From assembly GCA_004297445.1 (NCBI GenBank), contig SCUK01000009.1, positions 1-64,000 of the forward strand: a DNA stretch of 64,000 bases. Direction: 5' to 3'. Position numbers and translations under genes: made by a program. Positions 4,909-22,162 of this stretch are shown in pieces. How positions within the stretch are numbered: the stretch's first letter is position 1; the number at the start of each line of letters is the position of its first letter. This DNA is from Anaerolineae bacterium (GTDB taxonomy: Bacteria > Chloroflexota > Anaerolineae > Anaerolineales > UBA11579). Below the pieces are notes generated by a model. That model saw nothing but the letters and a program-made list of their open reading frames with translations. It was not told the origin of the DNA and made no database searches.

Positions 4909-7776
4909 TCAGTCTTCCGGGCAGGTGGGCCGATAGTCGTCGCCCAGATAGCGGGCCCATTCGTCTTGCGTAAGGTTTCGGCCCACGCGGGAACAGAGCA
5001 GTTGGCTCCATGTGTCGGGATCCAGATTCCAGATTCTCAGGTTGCCCAAAATATCGAACGTATACGCGTTTACGCCATCGGGGCCAAAGGCCACCTCCAG
5101 GAACCCGGAGCCGTCCACAACCAGGTCGGAAAGCACCACCGCCGAGAAGTCAGGTTCGCTCCGGTGCATCAGCGCGTCTTCCAGATCAATCAGAGCCAGA
5201 CTTCCGTCATCGGAAATCGAAACCAGTCGACGTCCATCCGGTGAGATCGCCAGTCCGCGAACAGAATCCAGATGCTCGAACAGCTCGATTGGAAGGAACT
5301 GCTCAGCGGTGAGGTCCCAGAGCAATACCAGACCGTTATCCATGCCCGTGATGAGCGCTTCTTCGCCCGGCGTGAAGACCATGGCGGTGGCCACCCTGCC
5401 AGAGAGATCTGTAGTCTCCCAGCGGCAGCACGCAACTGTATCTGTCTCCAGAATTCCCAGGTACGAGAACTGCGAGATTGCCAGCCAATCTCCGGATGGA
5501 CTCATGGCAGAGCTTTCGGTGTAATCTGCCAGTGGCAGGTTAATTGAGGTCGGGTTTCCACCCCCGAATGACCACGAACTCAGGGGGTTGTCCCGAGTGC
5601 CAAAAGCCCCGAAGAATAACTGGCTTCCATCACTGGAAAACGAGATAGCATACGCGCCGCCCCTTGAATCACGGACTTCCACTTCCCGGCGGCTGGCGAC
5701 ATCCCAAATTCGTATAGCTGCTTCATTGGCATTAAATCCGGCGACGAGCCAGGCGCCATCCGGGCTGAAGGCCAGGTCGCCCAGGTAGTCAATCCGGCCA
5801 AGCGACGGCCTGATCAATTCCCCTGTGGCGAGGTCAACCAGGAAGATTTCCCCGTCTATGGTGCCCACAGCGGCTTTCCCGCTGGCTGGGTGGAACGCCG
5901 CGTACACGAGCTCCGGGGTCGAACCGGCCAGTCGAACGAGCGCGTCTGTGGCCGCCGGGCTGGTCGGGTCTGCGAGCCAGGCGCTGATGTGCCCGTCCTC
6001 CGAGGCACTGAGGATGAATCGTCCATCGGGGCTGTAGGCCACACGCTCCAGGAACCGGGCATGGCCGCCGCTGCGGTAATCGGTCTCTCCGGTTGCGGTA
6101 TCGACCAGGATGAGACGGTAATCCTTGCTGGCGGCCGCTACCAGGCTTCCCTCCAACGGGCTGGAGAGGCTGGTGACGAGATTATTAAGCGTATAGGTGC
6201 CGCGATTGTTTTCCAGCGTGTTGGGGTCGCGCAACCGCAAATAGCCAGCAAAATCCACCGTTGCCAGCACGCGCTCACCCGGGATGAAAGTAAGCGCGGT
6301 GATATGGTGAACCGTATCCGTCTCATCAATATGGGCCTCAAGGATTTCGGTCAGCAACTCGCCGGTGGCGGCGTCCCAGGCGCCCAGATGCAGGCTTGCC
6401 GCAACGATGCGCCTTCCGTCTGGCGAGAACGTGAAAAATTGGGCCGGCTCGTCCGGCCACGTCTGGATGGTCGTACGAATTTCCAAATTGCTTGAGTCAA
6501 GGACGGTAATCAGCCCCGCATCATTGGTCGCGATCCGAGAGCCATCCGGACTGAAGACCGGATTTTCGTAGAATGGCCCGCCGGCTGATTCCAGCAGGAC
6601 CTCGCCGGTGGAAGCATCCATCAGCTTCAAGATTCCATTGTCAGAAATAAGCAGGGTGCCGCTGTCCGGGTGTATGGCCAGACCACGGACGCTCGCGACC
6701 GTCTGCTCCCATTCCAGCTGGAATGTTTCACCATTCCAGCGGGCGATGACGCCTTCATTGTCGGAACTGATGGCGAACGAGCCGTCCGGGGCGAACACGA
6801 GCCCGCTGAGACTGCTTGTGTGTGGGCTGGCCAGCTGACGGTACAGGGTCGGGCTGGCGGCTGCCACCTGGCCCACTGTGGAGATGGCCCGGCCGTAGTC
6901 CTCCCGGGTGGGAGCATACCCGGGGGCGGCGGAGGTGGTGGCCACGCGCAGCGATTCAAGCGCCAGCAGCCCGGCCAGGTCGAAGCGCGCGCCTACCAGT
7001 TGCCGCGCTTCAGACGCAAGGAAGTTGTAGGTCGCGACGCGTTCGCTTTCCAGCGCTGAATTGCGCTGCAGGTAGGCGAAGAGCGCCAGCCCGGCCAGGA
7101 CGATGGACACGACCACGGCAATGCTCTGGTTGCGGCGCCTGCGGCGCAGGTCGTCGGTACGGCTGGCGCTGATGTAGTTGGCCTGGAGTTCCGTGGGCAA
7201 CGGGTCTTTTCCGCTGGCGGCCGTCGTGATGAAGGTCTCGCCGGCCAGCAGGTCCACCCCTCGCAGCAGATAACTGGGATTTTGGTCGCGTTGTTGCCAC
7301 TCAATCCCCTTGGAAAGCAGGCGGGTGTGCTCGGCCACCCATTCCAGGTCGGTATTGATGGTTTCGAACAGCGCAGGCAGAGTCGCCTCGAAGTTGTCCT
7401 GCGGTCGCATGTAAACCCAGTTGGTCGCGGCGATCTTCGGGTCCAGCTTGTCGCCCTTGTTCGGCTCCCGGTGCAGAATCGGCACCAGTTTCTTGTTGTT
7501 CGCCAGCGCCAGCTCGAGTTCTTCGGCGCACACCTTGCTGGACACCGAATCGGGACTGATAATGAAAACAATGACGTCCGCAGATTGGATACCCTTGGTG
7601 ATTTCTGCCATCCAGTCCGCGCTCAACGGAATTCCCTCCCAGTCCACCCAGACATTTTCGGCGGGCAGGCCGAGTTTCAGCAGCCCGTCATAGACCTGGC
7701 GGACGAACTCCTTGTCTTTGCGGGAATACGAAATCATGATGCGTGCAAGAGAGGTTGAGACGGGGGCGTCGGTCAT
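4909..7776 (-). CDS. TIR domain protein with transmembrane helix and WD40 propellers
   Basis: 955 aa. Residues about 11-140 form a TIR domain (RIMISYSRKD; SADVIVFIISPDSVSS; then CAEEL, whose Glu85/86 is at the usual position of the TIR NADase glutamate). A basic stretch (210-215) precedes one transmembrane helix (about 218-236). A helical linker follows, and from about residue 310 to the end there are many WD40-like repeats with SPDG turns, enough for two propellers. The TIR domain would be cytoplasmic; the propeller side relative to the membrane is unproven. Such proteins may sense a ligand and trigger NAD+ cleavage, but defence function is inference. AAGGAG lies 7 nt before the ATG. It stands alone as a gene. 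Confidence 0.88.
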   Translation of the reverse strand: MTDAPVSTSLARIMISYSRKDKEFVRQVYDGLLKLGLPAENVWVDWEGIPLSADWMAEITKGIQSADVIVFIISPDSVSSKVCAEELELALANNKKLVPILHREPNKGDKLDPKIAATNWVYMRPQDNFEATLPALFETINTDLEWVAEHTRLLSKGIEWQQRDQNPSYLLRGVDLLAGETFITTAASGKDPLPTELQANYISASRTDDLRRRRRNQSIAVVVSIVLAGLALFAYLQRNSALESERVATYNFLASEARQLVGARFDLAGLLALESLRVATTSAAPGYAPTREDYGRAISTVGQVAAASPTLYRQLASPHTSSLSGLVFAPDGSFAISSDNEGVIARWNGETFQLEWEQTVASVRGLAIHPDSGTLLISDNGILKLMDASTGEVLLESAGGPFYENPVFSPDGSRIATNDAGLITVLDSSNLEIRTTIQTWPDEPAQFFTFSPDGRRIVAASLHLGAWDAATGELLTEILEAHIDETDTVHHITALTFIPGERVLATVDFAGYLRLRDPNTLENNRGTYTLNNLVTSLSSPLEGSLVAAASKDYRLILVDTATGETDYRSGGHARFLERVAYSPDGRFILSASEDGHISAWLADPTSPAATDALVRLAGSTPELVYAAFHPASGKAAVGTIDGEIFLVDLATGELIRPSLGRIDYLGDLAFSPDGAWLVAGFNANEAAIRIWDVASRREVEVRDSRGGAYAISFSSDGSQLFFGAFGTRDNPLSSWSFGGGNPTSINLPLADYTESSAMSPSGDWLAISQFSYLGILETDTVACCRWETTDLSGRVATAMVFTPGEEALITGMDNGLVLLWDLTAEQFLPIELFEHLDSVRGLAISPDGRRLVSISDDGSLALIDLEDALMHRSEPDFSAVVLSDLVVDGSGFLEVAFGPDGVNAYTFDILGNLRIWNLDPDTWSQLLCSRVGRNLTQDEWARYLGDDYRPTCPED

Positions 7777-16260: not shown

Positions 16261-16911
16261 ATGGACCAGCTCGACGAGATCGCCGAACGCATTCACACCG
16301 GTTTTGAAGCGCACACCAAAGCGCGCGACGCCGCGCTGGGTCACGCCCGCACCCTCACCCGCCACTGCGCCCACACCATCCGCGCCGTGCATCGTGAAGA
16401 ACGCGCCAACGCCGAAACCGAACTGGCCGCCGCCGCGCAACTGGCCGCCCACCTGCGCGCCCTCCATGCAGAGTACCCCAGCGTGTACTACGCTGGCTAC
16501 ACCCAGGATGCCCTCAAGGAATACGCCGAAGCCAACATCGTCTTTCACCTGATTCTGGATGGCGGCCGCCTGCCAACCCCCGAAGACCTCAAGGTCGAAA
16601 ACGATACCTACCTCAAAGGGCTGTCCGAAGCCGTGGGCGAACTGCGCCGCCGCTGCCTGGACATCCTGCGCCACGGTTATTCGGACGAGGTCGAACGCCT
16701 GCTCAAGCACATGGACGACATCTTCAACGTCCTCGTGACGATGGACTACCCCGACGCCGTCACCGGCGGCCTGCGCCGTCTCACAGACATCGCCCGTTCC
16801 ATCATCGAGCGCACGCGTGGCGACGTCACCCTCTCCAGACGCCAGCAGGAATTGCAGAACACCCTGGGCCGCCTGGAAAAGAAACTTGGCAAGGCAGGGC
16901 AGGAGGACTAG
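16261..16911 (+). CDS. Translin family RNA/DNA-binding protein
   Basis: 216 aa, almost entirely alpha-helical. The C-terminal half has the translin signature: NDTYLKGLSEAVGELRRRCLDIL, then MDDIFNVLVTMDYPDAVTGGLRRLTDIARSI and ERTRGDVTLS. Eukaryotic translin forms an octameric ring that binds ssDNA/RNA and, with TRAX, makes the C3PO RNase; prokaryotic homologues are predicted RNA-binding proteins. No TRAX-like second copy is present here. It is 3 nt upstream of a Cas4-like gene, so a joint nucleic-acid role is suggested. Confidence 0.85.
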   Translation: MDQLDEIAERIHTGFEAHTKARDAALGHARTLTRHCAHTIRAVHREERANAETELAAAAQLAAHLRALHAEYPSVYYAGYTQDALKEYAEANIVFHLILDGGRLPTPEDLKVENDTYLKGLSEAVGELRRRCLDILRHGYSDEVERLLKHMDDIFNVLVTMDYPDAVTGGLRRLTDIARSIIERTRGDVTLSRRQQELQNTLGRLEKKLGKAGQED

Positions 16912-16914
16912 CCG

Positions 16915-17154
16915 GTGCGCACCATCCGCGCCTCCGAGATTGGCTCCTTTCTATACTGCCGCCGCGCCTGGTGGTACCAGCAGCAGGGCATCCCCTCTGA
17001 GAATCAGGCCGAACTGGCCGCCGGGGGCGCCGTCCACCAGCGCCATGGCCGTGCCGTCGTTGCTGCCGGATTGCAGCGCGGGCTCGCCTTCCTCTTCCTG
17101 TTGGCGGCCCTCGTCCTGCTGGTCGCGCAATTCACGCTGCAGGTGCTGAACTGA
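16915..17154 (+). CDS. Cas4-like nuclease, N-terminal half with membrane anchor
   Basis: 79 aa, GTG start. ASEIGSFLYCRRAWWY is the N-terminal segment of Cas4/RecB-type nucleases, including the first iron-sulfur cysteine, and GGAVHQRHGR carries the motif I histidine. The chain then ends in a hydrophobic helix (about 57-78) instead of continuing into the nuclease core. Its stop overlaps the ATG of the next gene in TGATG, so the two halves are translationally coupled. Either a natural split nuclease or, less likely, a disrupted single gene. Confidence 0.75.
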   Translation: MRTIRASEIGSFLYCRRAWWYQQQGIPSENQAELAAGGAVHQRHGRAVVAAGLQRGLAFLFLLAALVLLVAQFTLQVLN

Positions 17155-17684
17155 TGGACGTCTCCCTCTGGCTCGGCCTTCTTCTACTGTTCCTCGCGCT
17201 GGCGCTCTTCTGGCGTTCCGGCCGGGCGCGCCATGCGGCTGGCCTCCCCGGCGGCCGCATCATCTACACCGACACCCGCGCCTGGGATGCCACCCCCGCG
17301 CCGCTGTTTGACCCGGTGACTCAACTCACCGGCAAGCCGGATTATTTGGTCCGCCAGGGCAGGCACATCATCCCCGTGGAAGTCAAAAGCAGCCGCCCGC
17401 CTGAAGCCCCTTACGACTCGCACATCTACCAGCTCGCCGCGTACTGCCTGCTGGTTACCCGCGAACATGGCACGCGGCCGCCTTACGGCATCATCCATTA
17501 CACCGGCGGCGGCGGCGGGCGCAGCTTCGCCGTGGATTACACCCCCGCCCTAGAAAACGCCCTGTTGGACCTGCTTACCGAGATGCGCCGTGCCGACCAG
17601 CAGGCCACCGTTGACCGCTCGCATGACCAGCCCGGCCGCTGCCGCGGCTGCGGCTACCAGACCCTATGCGAACAAAGACTATAA
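17154..17684 (+). CDS. Cas4-like PD-(D/E)XK nuclease, C-terminal half with membrane anchor
   Basis: 176 aa. An N-terminal transmembrane helix (about 4-22) is followed by the nuclease core: GKPDYLV (motif II Asp), PVEVKSS (the E-x-K motif), and HIYQLAAYCLL (the QxxxY helix). The C-terminal CRGCGYQTLCEQRL supplies the three other cysteines expected of a Cas4 iron-sulfur site. The motif I His and first Cys come from the preceding 79-aa protein, so the active site and cluster would be built from two chains held at the membrane. No CRISPR array or other cas gene is near; a repair or RNA role beside translin and recN is inferred. Confidence 0.8.
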   Translation: MDVSLWLGLLLLFLALALFWRSGRARHAAGLPGGRIIYTDTRAWDATPAPLFDPVTQLTGKPDYLVRQGRHIIPVEVKSSRPPEAPYDSHIYQLAAYCLLVTREHGTRPPYGIIHYTGGGGGRSFAVDYTPALENALLDLLTEMRRADQQATVDRSHDQPGRCRGCGYQTLCEQRL

Positions 17685-17692: not shown

Positions 17693-18559
17693 ATGAGCGT
17701 CCTGGACCTTGCCGCCATCGCCGTCCTCGTGCATCCCAACGTGGAACGCGGTGCGCAAATCGGCGAGGAAATTGTCGCTGCGGTGCAGGCCCACGGCCTT
17801 GGCGCGGTGAGCGGCGGCCTGTATGACCAGGAATTGCGCGGCCGCATCGCCGCTTCAGAATTTCAACTCGTCATCACCCTCGGCGGCGACGGCACCGTCC
17901 TGCGCGCCGGCCACCTGTGCGCCCCGCACGGCATTTCCGTCCTGCCGGTCAACTTCGGCCATCTCGGTTTCCTCATTGAAGTGCGCCGCGACTCATGGCA
18001 GATTGCGCTCGATAAGTTGATTCAAGGGGAATATTGGCTCGAGGAACGCCTGATGTTACAGGCGCAACACTGGCGCGGCGAGCAGCAGTTGGGCACCTGG
18101 GAGGTCGTCAACGAGGCGGTTGTGGGCCGCGGTCAGCAGGTGCGGCCGCTGCACCTCTCTGCCAGCCTGGATGGCGAACCGCTCACTACCTACGTGGCCG
18201 ATGCCCTCATCGCCGCCACGCCCACCGGCAGCACTGCCTATGCCCTGGCGGCTGGCGGCCCGATTCTCCCGCCCACCCTGCGCAACATCCTGCTCTTGCC
18301 CGTCGCCCCGCACCTGTCCATCGACCGGGCCATCGTGCTGGCCGAAGGCGCAACCGTGACGTTGAGCGTCCTCTCCGACCATTCCGCCGTCCTCAGCATT
18401 GACGGCCAGTCCTCCATAGCATTGGAATCGCAAGACCGGGTGGTGGTCACCGTCAGCCAGCACGCGCTCAAGCTGGTGCGCTTCCAGCCGGCCGGCTACT
18501 TCTACCGCAACCTGATTACGCTTATGGACCAGAATCCATCCGTTGACGAGGTCTCGTAA
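17693..18559 (+). CDS. nadK: NAD kinase
   Basis: 288 aa. Phosphorylates NAD+ to NADP+ in the cytoplasm. The diagnostic GGDGT is at 64-68, followed by LPVNFGHLGFL, the NEAVVGRG segment, and the ATPTGSTAYALAAGGPI diphosphate-binding region. The start at MSVLDL is preferred over an ATG nine codons upstream because TATAAT ends 7 nt before it. It sits 8 nt after the Cas4-like gene and 1 nt before the zinc-finger membrane gene; nadK next to recN is a common bacterial arrangement. Confidence 0.96.
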   Translation: MSVLDLAAIAVLVHPNVERGAQIGEEIVAAVQAHGLGAVSGGLYDQELRGRIAASEFQLVITLGGDGTVLRAGHLCAPHGISVLPVNFGHLGFLIEVRRDSWQIALDKLIQGEYWLEERLMLQAQHWRGEQQLGTWEVVNEAVVGRGQQVRPLHLSASLDGEPLTTYVADALIAATPTGSTAYALAAGGPILPPTLRNILLLPVAPHLSIDRAIVLAEGATVTLSVLSDHSAVLSIDGQSSIALESQDRVVVTVSQHALKLVRFQPAGYFYRNLITLMDQNPSVDEVS

Positions 18560-20813: not shown

Positions 20814-21132
20814 GTTGCTATTAGAATCCAAGTTATTCCCTTGAGTTCTATTCCGAAATCGACTGATGTCGTACCGGAGTCTTTCGCAACCAGACAGCGG
20901 GCTTAAACCAAGCGCTGCTTGGTCGCCCGCTGCGACGTACTGCTCTTTTCACCAAATTCCCTATTGCATTTTTGACAGTTTTCGGTATAAATAAGCGAAA
21001 TCCCCAAATTAAATAGAGGCGTCCATGCCTCCTGCCAAAAACTGGAATTGCATCGCGCACGCCGGAAAGCGGGCCGCTCGATCGCAATTCTTTTATTTTT
21101 GGCCTGTTATCAGGAAGAGGAACAGCAAACTT
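20814..21132. other. Intergenic region (319 nt) with nested hairpin and a putative promoter
   Basis: Holds a strong nested stem (outer 20895-20902 with 20925-20932, inner 20907-20913 with 20917-20923) without an immediate T-run. A plausible plus-strand promoter follows: TTGCAT (20964-20969), 16 nt, TATAAA (20986-20991). No gene is supported; a minus-strand open frame here has no ribosome site or recognisable content. Confidence 0.5.
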
Positions 21133-21519
21133 ATGATGGTAGTGAACGTACGCGTTAAAGACAGCGCAATCCACGGGTTAGGCTGCTTTGCCGACCAGCC
21201 CATTGCCAAGGGCCAATTGGTGTGGACCTTTGATGACCGCATTGACCTGCGCATCCCCGTCGAACGCGTCCCGGGCCTACCACAGCCTGCCCGCGACTTT
21301 CTGGACATGTACGCCTTTCAGGAAGTGAAGGACGGCAAGACCTACCTCATCCTCTGCGGTGACCACGGCAAACATATGAATCATTCCGAACAGCCCAACA
21401 CCACAGAAGAGAGTAACGGTGACAACCGCGCCGCCCGCGACATCGCCGCCGGCGAAGAACTTACCTGCAATTACTTCCTGTTCGACGCGGGGGCGGCCGC
21501 CCGCATTGGACGGCCCTAG
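21133..21519 (+). CDS. SET domain protein 1
   Basis: 128 aa, essentially one SET domain, the fold of S-adenosylmethionine-dependent protein lysine methyltransferases. DSAIHGLGCFADQPIAKGQLVWTF is the first SET block, NHSEQPNT is the cofactor-binding NHS motif, and AAGEELTCNYFLFD is the last block with the catalytic Tyr. No post-SET cysteines. The start is placed at the tandem ATG-ATG; the in-frame region upstream overlaps the promoter. Its substrate is unknown. A second SET gene follows after 82 nt. Confidence 0.85.
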   Translation: MMVVNVRVKDSAIHGLGCFADQPIAKGQLVWTFDDRIDLRIPVERVPGLPQPARDFLDMYAFQEVKDGKTYLILCGDHGKHMNHSEQPNTTEESNGDNRAARDIAAGEELTCNYFLFDAGAAARIGRP

Positions 21520-21601: not shown

Positions 21602-22162
21602 ATGACCGGAAATTCCGCTTCATACCTGTCTGAAAAGCTTGAGGCCCGGGAGAACCCGGCCAAGGGCGGTTGGGGCCTGTTTGCCCACCAACCGGTGAAA
21701 GCCGGAGAACTGCTCATTTTCTGGGGCGGCTCGATCATCAACTATCAGGAACTGATGGCCCTGCCCGAAGATGTGCGTATCCACACCATCCAGGTGGAAG
21801 AGGACCTTTTCCAGGTCCCGGTGCGGCAGGGTGAGGCCGCCGACATGATTAACCATTCCTGCGATCCGAACGCTGGCCTCTCGAGCGCAATCTCGGTGGT
21901 GGCGATGCGGGACATCAAAGCCGGGGAAGAGGTCTGCTTCGACTACGCCACGTGCGACAGCCAGCCCTACGACGAATTTGAATGTGGCTGCGGCGCTGCC
22001 AACTGCCGCAAGCACGTCACCGGCGCAGACTGGCGCAAACCCGAACTGTGGGCGCGCTACAACGGCTACTTCTCCCCGTACCTGCAACGCCGTATCAACG
22101 AACTGGTCGGTGAGCAGGCCCTGTCGTTTGCGATGAGCGAGCAATCCCCGTCCGGTGACTGA
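21602..22162 (+). CDS. SET domain protein 2 with post-SET cysteines
   Basis: 186 aa. NPAKGGWGLFAHQPVKAGELLIFWGG opens the SET fold, MINHSCDPNAGLSS carries the NHSCxPN cofactor motif, and IKAGEEVCFDYATCDS the catalytic Tyr. FECGCGAANCRKHVTG follows as a post-SET-like zinc cluster, then a C-terminal helix. This is closer to eukaryote-type lysine methyltransferases than SET protein 1. The GGAGGA site is 14 nt before the ATG, longer than usual. The target may be a chromatin or ribosomal protein (inference). Confidence 0.88.
   Translation: MTGNSASYLSEKLEARENPAKGGWGLFAHQPVKAGELLIFWGGSIINYQELMALPEDVRIHTIQVEEDLFQVPVRQGEAADMINHSCDPNAGLSSAISVVAMRDIKAGEEVCFDYATCDSQPYDEFECGCGAANCRKHVTGADWRKPELWARYNGYFSPYLQRRINELVGEQALSFAMSEQSPSGD

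Follow-up and report, generated by a model that had tools for sequence, protein, structure and literature searches.

A Cas4-Type Nuclease of Chloroflexota Is Very Probably Assembled from Two Membrane-Anchored Chains

Introduction

Cas4-family nucleases are described as soluble proteins of one chain. A locus in the genome of an Anaerolineae bacterium raises the question of whether a nuclease of this family can be divided between two genes and put together at the membrane. The window, i.e., the whole stretch of 64,000 nucleotides that was analyzed, contains two overlapping genes, chain 1 and chain 2 (Table 1). An initial annotation, made from the letters of the DNA, proposed that they encode the halves of a split Cas4-like nuclease. 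Are the two genes parts of one enzyme or the remains of one gene? Our answer is that a working enzyme is very probably assembled from the two proteins at the cell membrane.

Results

The Cas4 Motifs Are Divided between Two Genes

Table 1. Features of the split pair and of its nearest neighbors; positions are those of the window.
Feature	Positions	Strand	Remarks
Trax/translin-family gene, directly upstream of chain 1	16261..16911	+	Matches AfTrax (3zc1); context only
Chain 1, 79 aa	16915..17154	+	GTG start, AGGAGG upstream; N-terminal Cas4 segment, then C-terminal TM helix
Cys15 codon (chain 1)	16957..16959	+	Predicted fourth Fe-S ligand; counterpart of Cys32 in SSO0001 and Cys64 in Pcal_0546 (PMC4176176)
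His41 codon (chain 1)	17035..17037	+	RecB motif I; counterpart of His62 in SSO0001 (PMC4176176)
Chain-1 TM helix	17083..17139	+	N-in/C-out by the positive-inside rule; part of helix 35–82 in the read-through model
TGATG stop/start overlap, chain 1/chain 2	17152..17156	+	
Chain 2, 176 aa	17154..17684	+	ATG start; TM helix at the N terminus, followed by the RecB/Cas4 catalytic core and the 3-Cys motif
Chain-2 TM helix	17154..17213	+	N-out/C-in; helix 92–117 in the read-through model
Asp63 (chain 2), motif II, GKPDYL	17340..17342	+	135/135 sequences
Glu76-Val-Lys78 (chain 2), motif III, ExK	17379..17387	+	135/135 sequences
Gln93-xxx-Tyr97 (chain 2), QhxxY	17430..17444	+	135/135 sequences
Cys163, Cys166, Cys172 (chain 2), CxxCx5C	17640..17669	+	Predicted Fe-S ligands; 135/135 sequences
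NAD kinase gene, downstream	17696..18559	+	Identified by sequence and place beside RecN, not by profile search

Chain 1 contains LYC15RRAWWY and G37xxxH41, followed by a hydrophobic helix. Chain 2 has a hydrophobic start, then GKPD63YL, E76VK78, Q93LAAY97, and C163RGC166GYQTLC172. That is, RecB motifs I (His), II (Asp), and III (ExK) and the QhxxY motif are all there, shared out between the two chains. The four-Cys pattern of Cas4 is likewise complete, with one Cys from chain 1 and three from chain 2.

Profile matches divide in the same way. On the Pfam Cas_Cas4 profile (160 positions), chain 2 occupies positions 53–158 with 42.8 bits (cut-off 22.7), and chain 1 occupies 3–41 with 17.2 bits, which is under the cut-off when chain 1 is taken alone. 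On TIGR00372 (NCBIfam, 180 positions), chain 1 covers 2–45 and chain 2 covers 63–179; chain 2 scores 62.3 against a cut-off of 65, and chain 1 is also under the cut-off. On both profiles, the halves are complementary and do not overlap, and the TM helices sit in the gap. The two reading frames and their overlap are as the initial annotation had them, and its division of the motifs between the two proteins agrees with both the residues and the profile halves.

The Split Is Conserved

A search at the order level covered 60 relatives and the genome of the window. Chain 2 was present in 53 of these 61 genomes, and 30 loci were fetched. In all 30, chain 1 has its own TM helix and a stop codon ahead of chain 2, one locus (L015) being cut by a contig end inside chain 1. 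The initial annotation had suggested looking for the same break with two helices in relatives, and had named an uninterrupted protein in close relatives as the finding that would overturn it. No such protein turned up: every order-level locus is broken at the same place, with a helix on either side, and split loci are found throughout the phylum.

The spacing of the halves is variable. From the stop of chain 1 to the start of chain 2, the gap in the order-level loci ranges from −10 to +87 nt, and the frames vary. Among 178 chain-2 loci, a set with some redundancy across collections, 132 have an adjoining chain 1, and in 29 a further gene separates the two chains, with chain 1 on the same strand. 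The other 17 have a divergent chain 1 that was recognized by eye, are truncated, or are unlinked. The commonest intervening gene encodes a conserved HEAT-like protein of about 200 residues. This gene (MSxLLNRLGYLQTRRDRTPNLDLARDLAA...) lies between the chains in many Anaerolineales, at L081, L094, L112, and about 20 other loci.

Chain 1 has a dN/dS of 0.11–0.19 within the genus, and chain 2 one of 0.14–0.23. Among 140 unique chain-1 sequences, Cys15 is found in 137/137 and His41 in 140/140; Asp63, Glu76, Lys78, Gln93, Tyr97, and the three Cys are each found in 135 of 135 unique chain-2 sequences. Chance is excluded by ligands that are invariant in 135–140 unique sequences, together with dN/dS of 0.11–0.23 in both genes.

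These observations bear on two explanations that would do away with a two-part protein. In the first, the pair is a single-chain Cas4 gene with a sequencing error, a recent frameshift, or the decay of a pseudogene. A frameshift could give the one-base gene overlap seen in the window, but it would have to account for a split shared by 30 of 30 order-level loci in different frames, and for the dN/dS values. Together with the varying spacing, the intervening genes and the unlinked halves (see below) rule out a frameshift or pseudogene, which we regard as scarcely credible.

In the second explanation, a single polypeptide is still produced, through programmed frameshifting or stop read-through. 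Both chains do lie in one frame in 29 loci, some of them only one stop apart. However, the offset varies, the halves of many loci are separated by another gene, and in some cases one half lies on a different contig or at a distant site of one chromosome, so no single recoding signal could fit all. Read-through is ruled out on these grounds, and recoding of any kind is very improbable. The two genes are best read as encoding two proteins.

The Two Genes Occur Together, Even When Unlinked

A survey of 400 genomes of the phylum, Chloroflexota, in which a strong chain 2 was defined by E ≤ 1e-44, found a strong chain 1 in 86 of the 86 genomes with a strong chain 2 (Fisher p 1e-59, a statistic in which shared ancestry is left uncorrected). 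Chain 1 occurs without chain 2 only in G095, where chain 2 is fragmentary, and in G119, which is 82% complete. In eight of the eight listed order- or class-level genomes without chain 2, chain 1 was not found.

The halves are unlinked in about 10 genomes of the phylum. In a single-contig genome, the distance comes to about 0.5 Mb; G262, which is one contig, has its two genes at 244,712 and 3,051,906. In G401 and G341, both genes lie on one contig at a great distance from each other, and G094, G208, G315, G329, G336, G357, and G377 (and G153) have them on separate contigs. Chain-1 genes lying apart from chain 2 keep the Cys, the His, and the TM helix. Among the genetic evidence, the retention of unlinked halves points most strongly to a requirement for both in trans.

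Natural Fusions Occur in One Family

Natural fusions were found at three loci of family f41 (L165, L179, and L196) and nowhere else; each is one chain with a TM hairpin. All three have lost the motif I His and/or the motif II Asp. A model of the L179 fusion (pLDDT 84.8) is Cas4-like as well. The fusions identify the two chains as counterparts of a single protein; it is linkage rather than activity that they establish. Split f41 members near the fused forms, L166 and L171, are also without the motif II Asp. A further peculiarity of f41 is a chain 1 with an insertion of about 40 residues ahead of the GxxxxH motif, seen at L158–L163, L178, and L201.

The fusions help to weigh two other readings of the pair. 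In one of them, chain 2 would act as the nuclease by itself or as a homodimer; chain 1 would regulate or inhibit it, and its likeness to the Cas4 N terminus would be accidental. Chain 2 by itself passes the Pfam Cas4 cut-off, and the genes can be unlinked, as this reading would allow. It is nonetheless quite improbable, since chain 1 retains just what chain 2 misses, i.e., the Cys ligand and the motif I His, and since chain 1 is the N-terminal half in the fused forms. Alternatively, the two chains might form a complex without nuclease function, such as a membrane DNA-binding or sensing Fe-S protein. The f41 fusions, which keep the fold despite their lost residues, speak for this. We consider it unlikely, because none of H, D, E, K, Q, and Y varies (100% conservation) in the 135–140 unique sequences outside the fused f41 branch, which is more than binding alone would require. 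We therefore retain the reading of a two-chain nuclease.

Topology and Predicted Fold

A mean Kyte–Doolittle hydropathy of at least 1.6 over 19 residues is found in 141 of 141 chain-1 sequences and in 99% of 136 chain-2 starts, as expected if each chain has its own TM helix at the break. The K+R count flanking the chain-1 helix is 3.22 before versus 0.30 after; for the chain-2 helix, it is 0.07 before versus 3.41 after. With positive charges before the first helix and after the second, both catalytic parts are predicted to be cytoplasmic, and the cut is predicted to lie on the outer side.

Because the two chains of the window do not share a frame, a relative, L013, was modeled in their place; its chain 2 is 59% identical to that of the window. 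The AlphaFold2 model is L013 read through its single in-frame stop, as a single chain and not as a heterodimer; its alignment input held 14 further in-frame rows and 42 separate chains. The model is a confident Cas4 fold (pLDDT 93.7, pTM 0.88), and at the break it forms a TM hairpin. Helix 35–82 holds motif I and runs on as the first TM helix, and the second TM helix is 92–117. The best PDB match is the type I-C Cas4 (8d3l; E 2.8e-6, 275 alignment columns), followed by Dna2, ACE1, SSO0001, Pcal_0546, and MGME1.

Gene Neighborhood and Probable Independence from CRISPR

The pair lies outside CRISPR loci, without cas1 or cas2 alongside, as does a solo-Cas4. Cas1 was not found in the genome of the window, nor was a second Cas4, and a role in CRISPR adaptation is thus ruled out. 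Likewise, Cas1 was not found in 20 of the 86 genomes with a strong pair.

The downstream neighborhood, NADK–B-box–RecN, is conserved within the taxonomic order. Upstream, the product of the Trax-family gene matches AfTrax with E 4.2e-21 over residues 16–200, i.e., it is homologous over its whole length. This gene also adjoins DUF3467 and SSB genes. A Trax–Cas4 operon that works on RNA or ssDNA would fit the 3 nt that separate Trax from chain 1 here, the Trax gene upstream in 23 of the 30 order-level loci, and its presence near chain 1 in a few other families. Against this, 220 of 400 genomes have Trax homologues, mostly apart from chain 1, and such homologues are also present in relatives that lack both chains. 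This wide and mostly unlinked distribution rules out Trax as an obligate partner, and we hold such an operon to be highly doubtful.

In other classes, an RseP-like protease gene is ahead of chain 1. Since the neighbors differ between classes, they indicate no pathway. A competence link was considered as well. ComEC is present in 12 of 13 genomes without the pair, that is, it occurs with or without the pair, and it was not found in two searched genomes of the window's own genus; the co-occurrence pattern is uninformative. To summarize, the context points to a chromosomal, CRISPR-independent role for the split Cas4 but to no pathway.

The Same Split outside Chloroflexota

The search beyond the phylum covered plasmid and viral collections. 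The same arrangement is found on three Bacillus subtilis plasmids of about 64 kb (L202, L206, and L207), with a chain 1 of 81 residues and a chain 2 of 162 residues, and on two Planctomycetota plasmids. A third Planctomycetota plasmid has a truncated copy adjoining a transposase gene. The Chloroflexota-type profiles match the plasmid chains with 47–57 bits for chain 1 and 67–98 bits for chain 2. Around the pair, the B. subtilis plasmids have a row of DinG-like helicase, hfq, thermonuclease-family, and toprim genes. Relatives were not found in viral contigs, phage records, or viral collections, which rules out a phage origin.

Discussion

Comparison with Known Cas4-Type Nucleases

Solo-Cas4 genes (COG1468/PF01930) have been reported as “present in many Chloroflexi” (Hudaiberdiev et al. 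2017, PMC5704561), and this group probably includes chain 2. The split pair shares with them the Cas4 fold and motifs, the location outside CRISPR loci, and a mainly vertical inheritance. It differs in that two genes are needed; PMC5704561 mentions no split, membrane anchor, or first half.

In SSO0001 and Pcal_0546, the cluster is bound by one Cys from the N-terminal part and three from the C-terminal part, Cys32/188/191/197 and Cys64/200/203/209, respectively (PMC4176176). The metal site consists of His62/Asp99/Glu113 in SSO0001 and His94/Asp123/Glu136 in Pcal_0546 (PMC4176176). The split pair resembles SSO0001 (4IC1) and Pcal_0546 (4R5Q) in fold, in the D, ExK, and QxxxY residues, and in an identical C-x2-C-x5-C spacing. 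The Cys-to-His spacing is close, being 30 in both proteins and 26 in chain 1. In contrast to the pair, both are soluble single chains, decamer or monomer (PMC4176176), in which no TM helices separate motif I from motif II.

The type I-C Cas4 of the Cas4–Cas1–Cas2 complex (8D3L), the best fold match of the rejoined model, acts with Cas1–Cas2, whereas the genome of the window is without cas1. The Argonaute-associated Cas4 ACE1 (9IAB, 9IAC) is a non-CRISPR member of the family and a fold match with E 2e-5, but it is a single chain of about 266 residues, and its partner is Argonaute. The nuclease cores of Dna2, MGME1, and EXO5 have the RecB-like fold in common with the pair; the matched structures are single-chain nuclease domains, unsplit at motif I/II. 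The single polypeptide typical of the Cas4 family is replaced by two genes everywhere examined, save in the three f41 fusions. In the open-licence literature, our searches turned up no report of a Cas4 that is split or membrane-bound.

Proposed Mechanism

The initial annotation held that one active site and one cluster would be rebuilt across two polypeptides. Co-occurrence in 86 of 86 genomes, joint absence, and halves that are unlinked yet kept argue for this, as do the f41 hairpin fusions and the confident Cas4-like model of the read-through chain. We hold it highly likely that the two genes encode the chains, both of them obligate, of a single membrane-tethered solo Cas4-type nuclease whose site and cluster lie across the chains at the cytoplasmic face.

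The proposed assembly is as follows. A chain-1 helix that leads directly into the membrane would carry the motif I His and the Fe-S Cys; chain 2, coming back from the membrane, would add the Asp, ExK, QxxxY, and the other three Cys. Paired antiparallel, the two TM helices would amount to a hairpin with its connecting loop severed. The core of the nuclease, its active site, and a 3+1-Cys Fe-S cluster would then form between the two polypeptides at the cytoplasmic face. Neither chain has the full site, so activity is expected only once both are inserted and paired, and nuclease action would then be confined to the membrane. The most economical mechanism is a membrane-tethered Cas4-type ssDNA nuclease that would be active only with its chains paired in the membrane.

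From these data, we infer a physical complex with an Fe-S cluster and metal-dependent cleavage of ssDNA, as by a Cas4-like 5′–3′ exonuclease/endonuclease. The enzyme presumably has a role on DNA at the membrane, independent of CRISPR; incoming or end-processed DNA is our guess as to the substrate. On balance, we also favor a broader proposal, i.e., a widespread class of split Cas4s, on Chloroflexota chromosomes and on Bacillus and Planctomycetota plasmids, in which membrane pairing of two single-pass proteins would be the on-switch by completing the Fe-S (1+3 Cys) and metal sites. A conserved Cas4 cut between motifs I and II, with a helix at each cut end, would be a natural case of nuclease control through obligate membrane assembly. 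The pair accounts for genes annotated as “hypothetical protein” and “Dna2/Cas4 domain protein”, and the B. subtilis plasmid copies bring it within reach of tests in a laboratory species.

Other Genes in the Window

Judged by sequence only, two further loci of the window have putative domains. The minus-strand gene at 4909–7776 encodes 955 residues that read as a TIR-like domain at the N terminus, together with a TM segment and WD40-like repeats. At 21025–21519 and 21602–22162, two small adjoining proteins are SET-domain-like.
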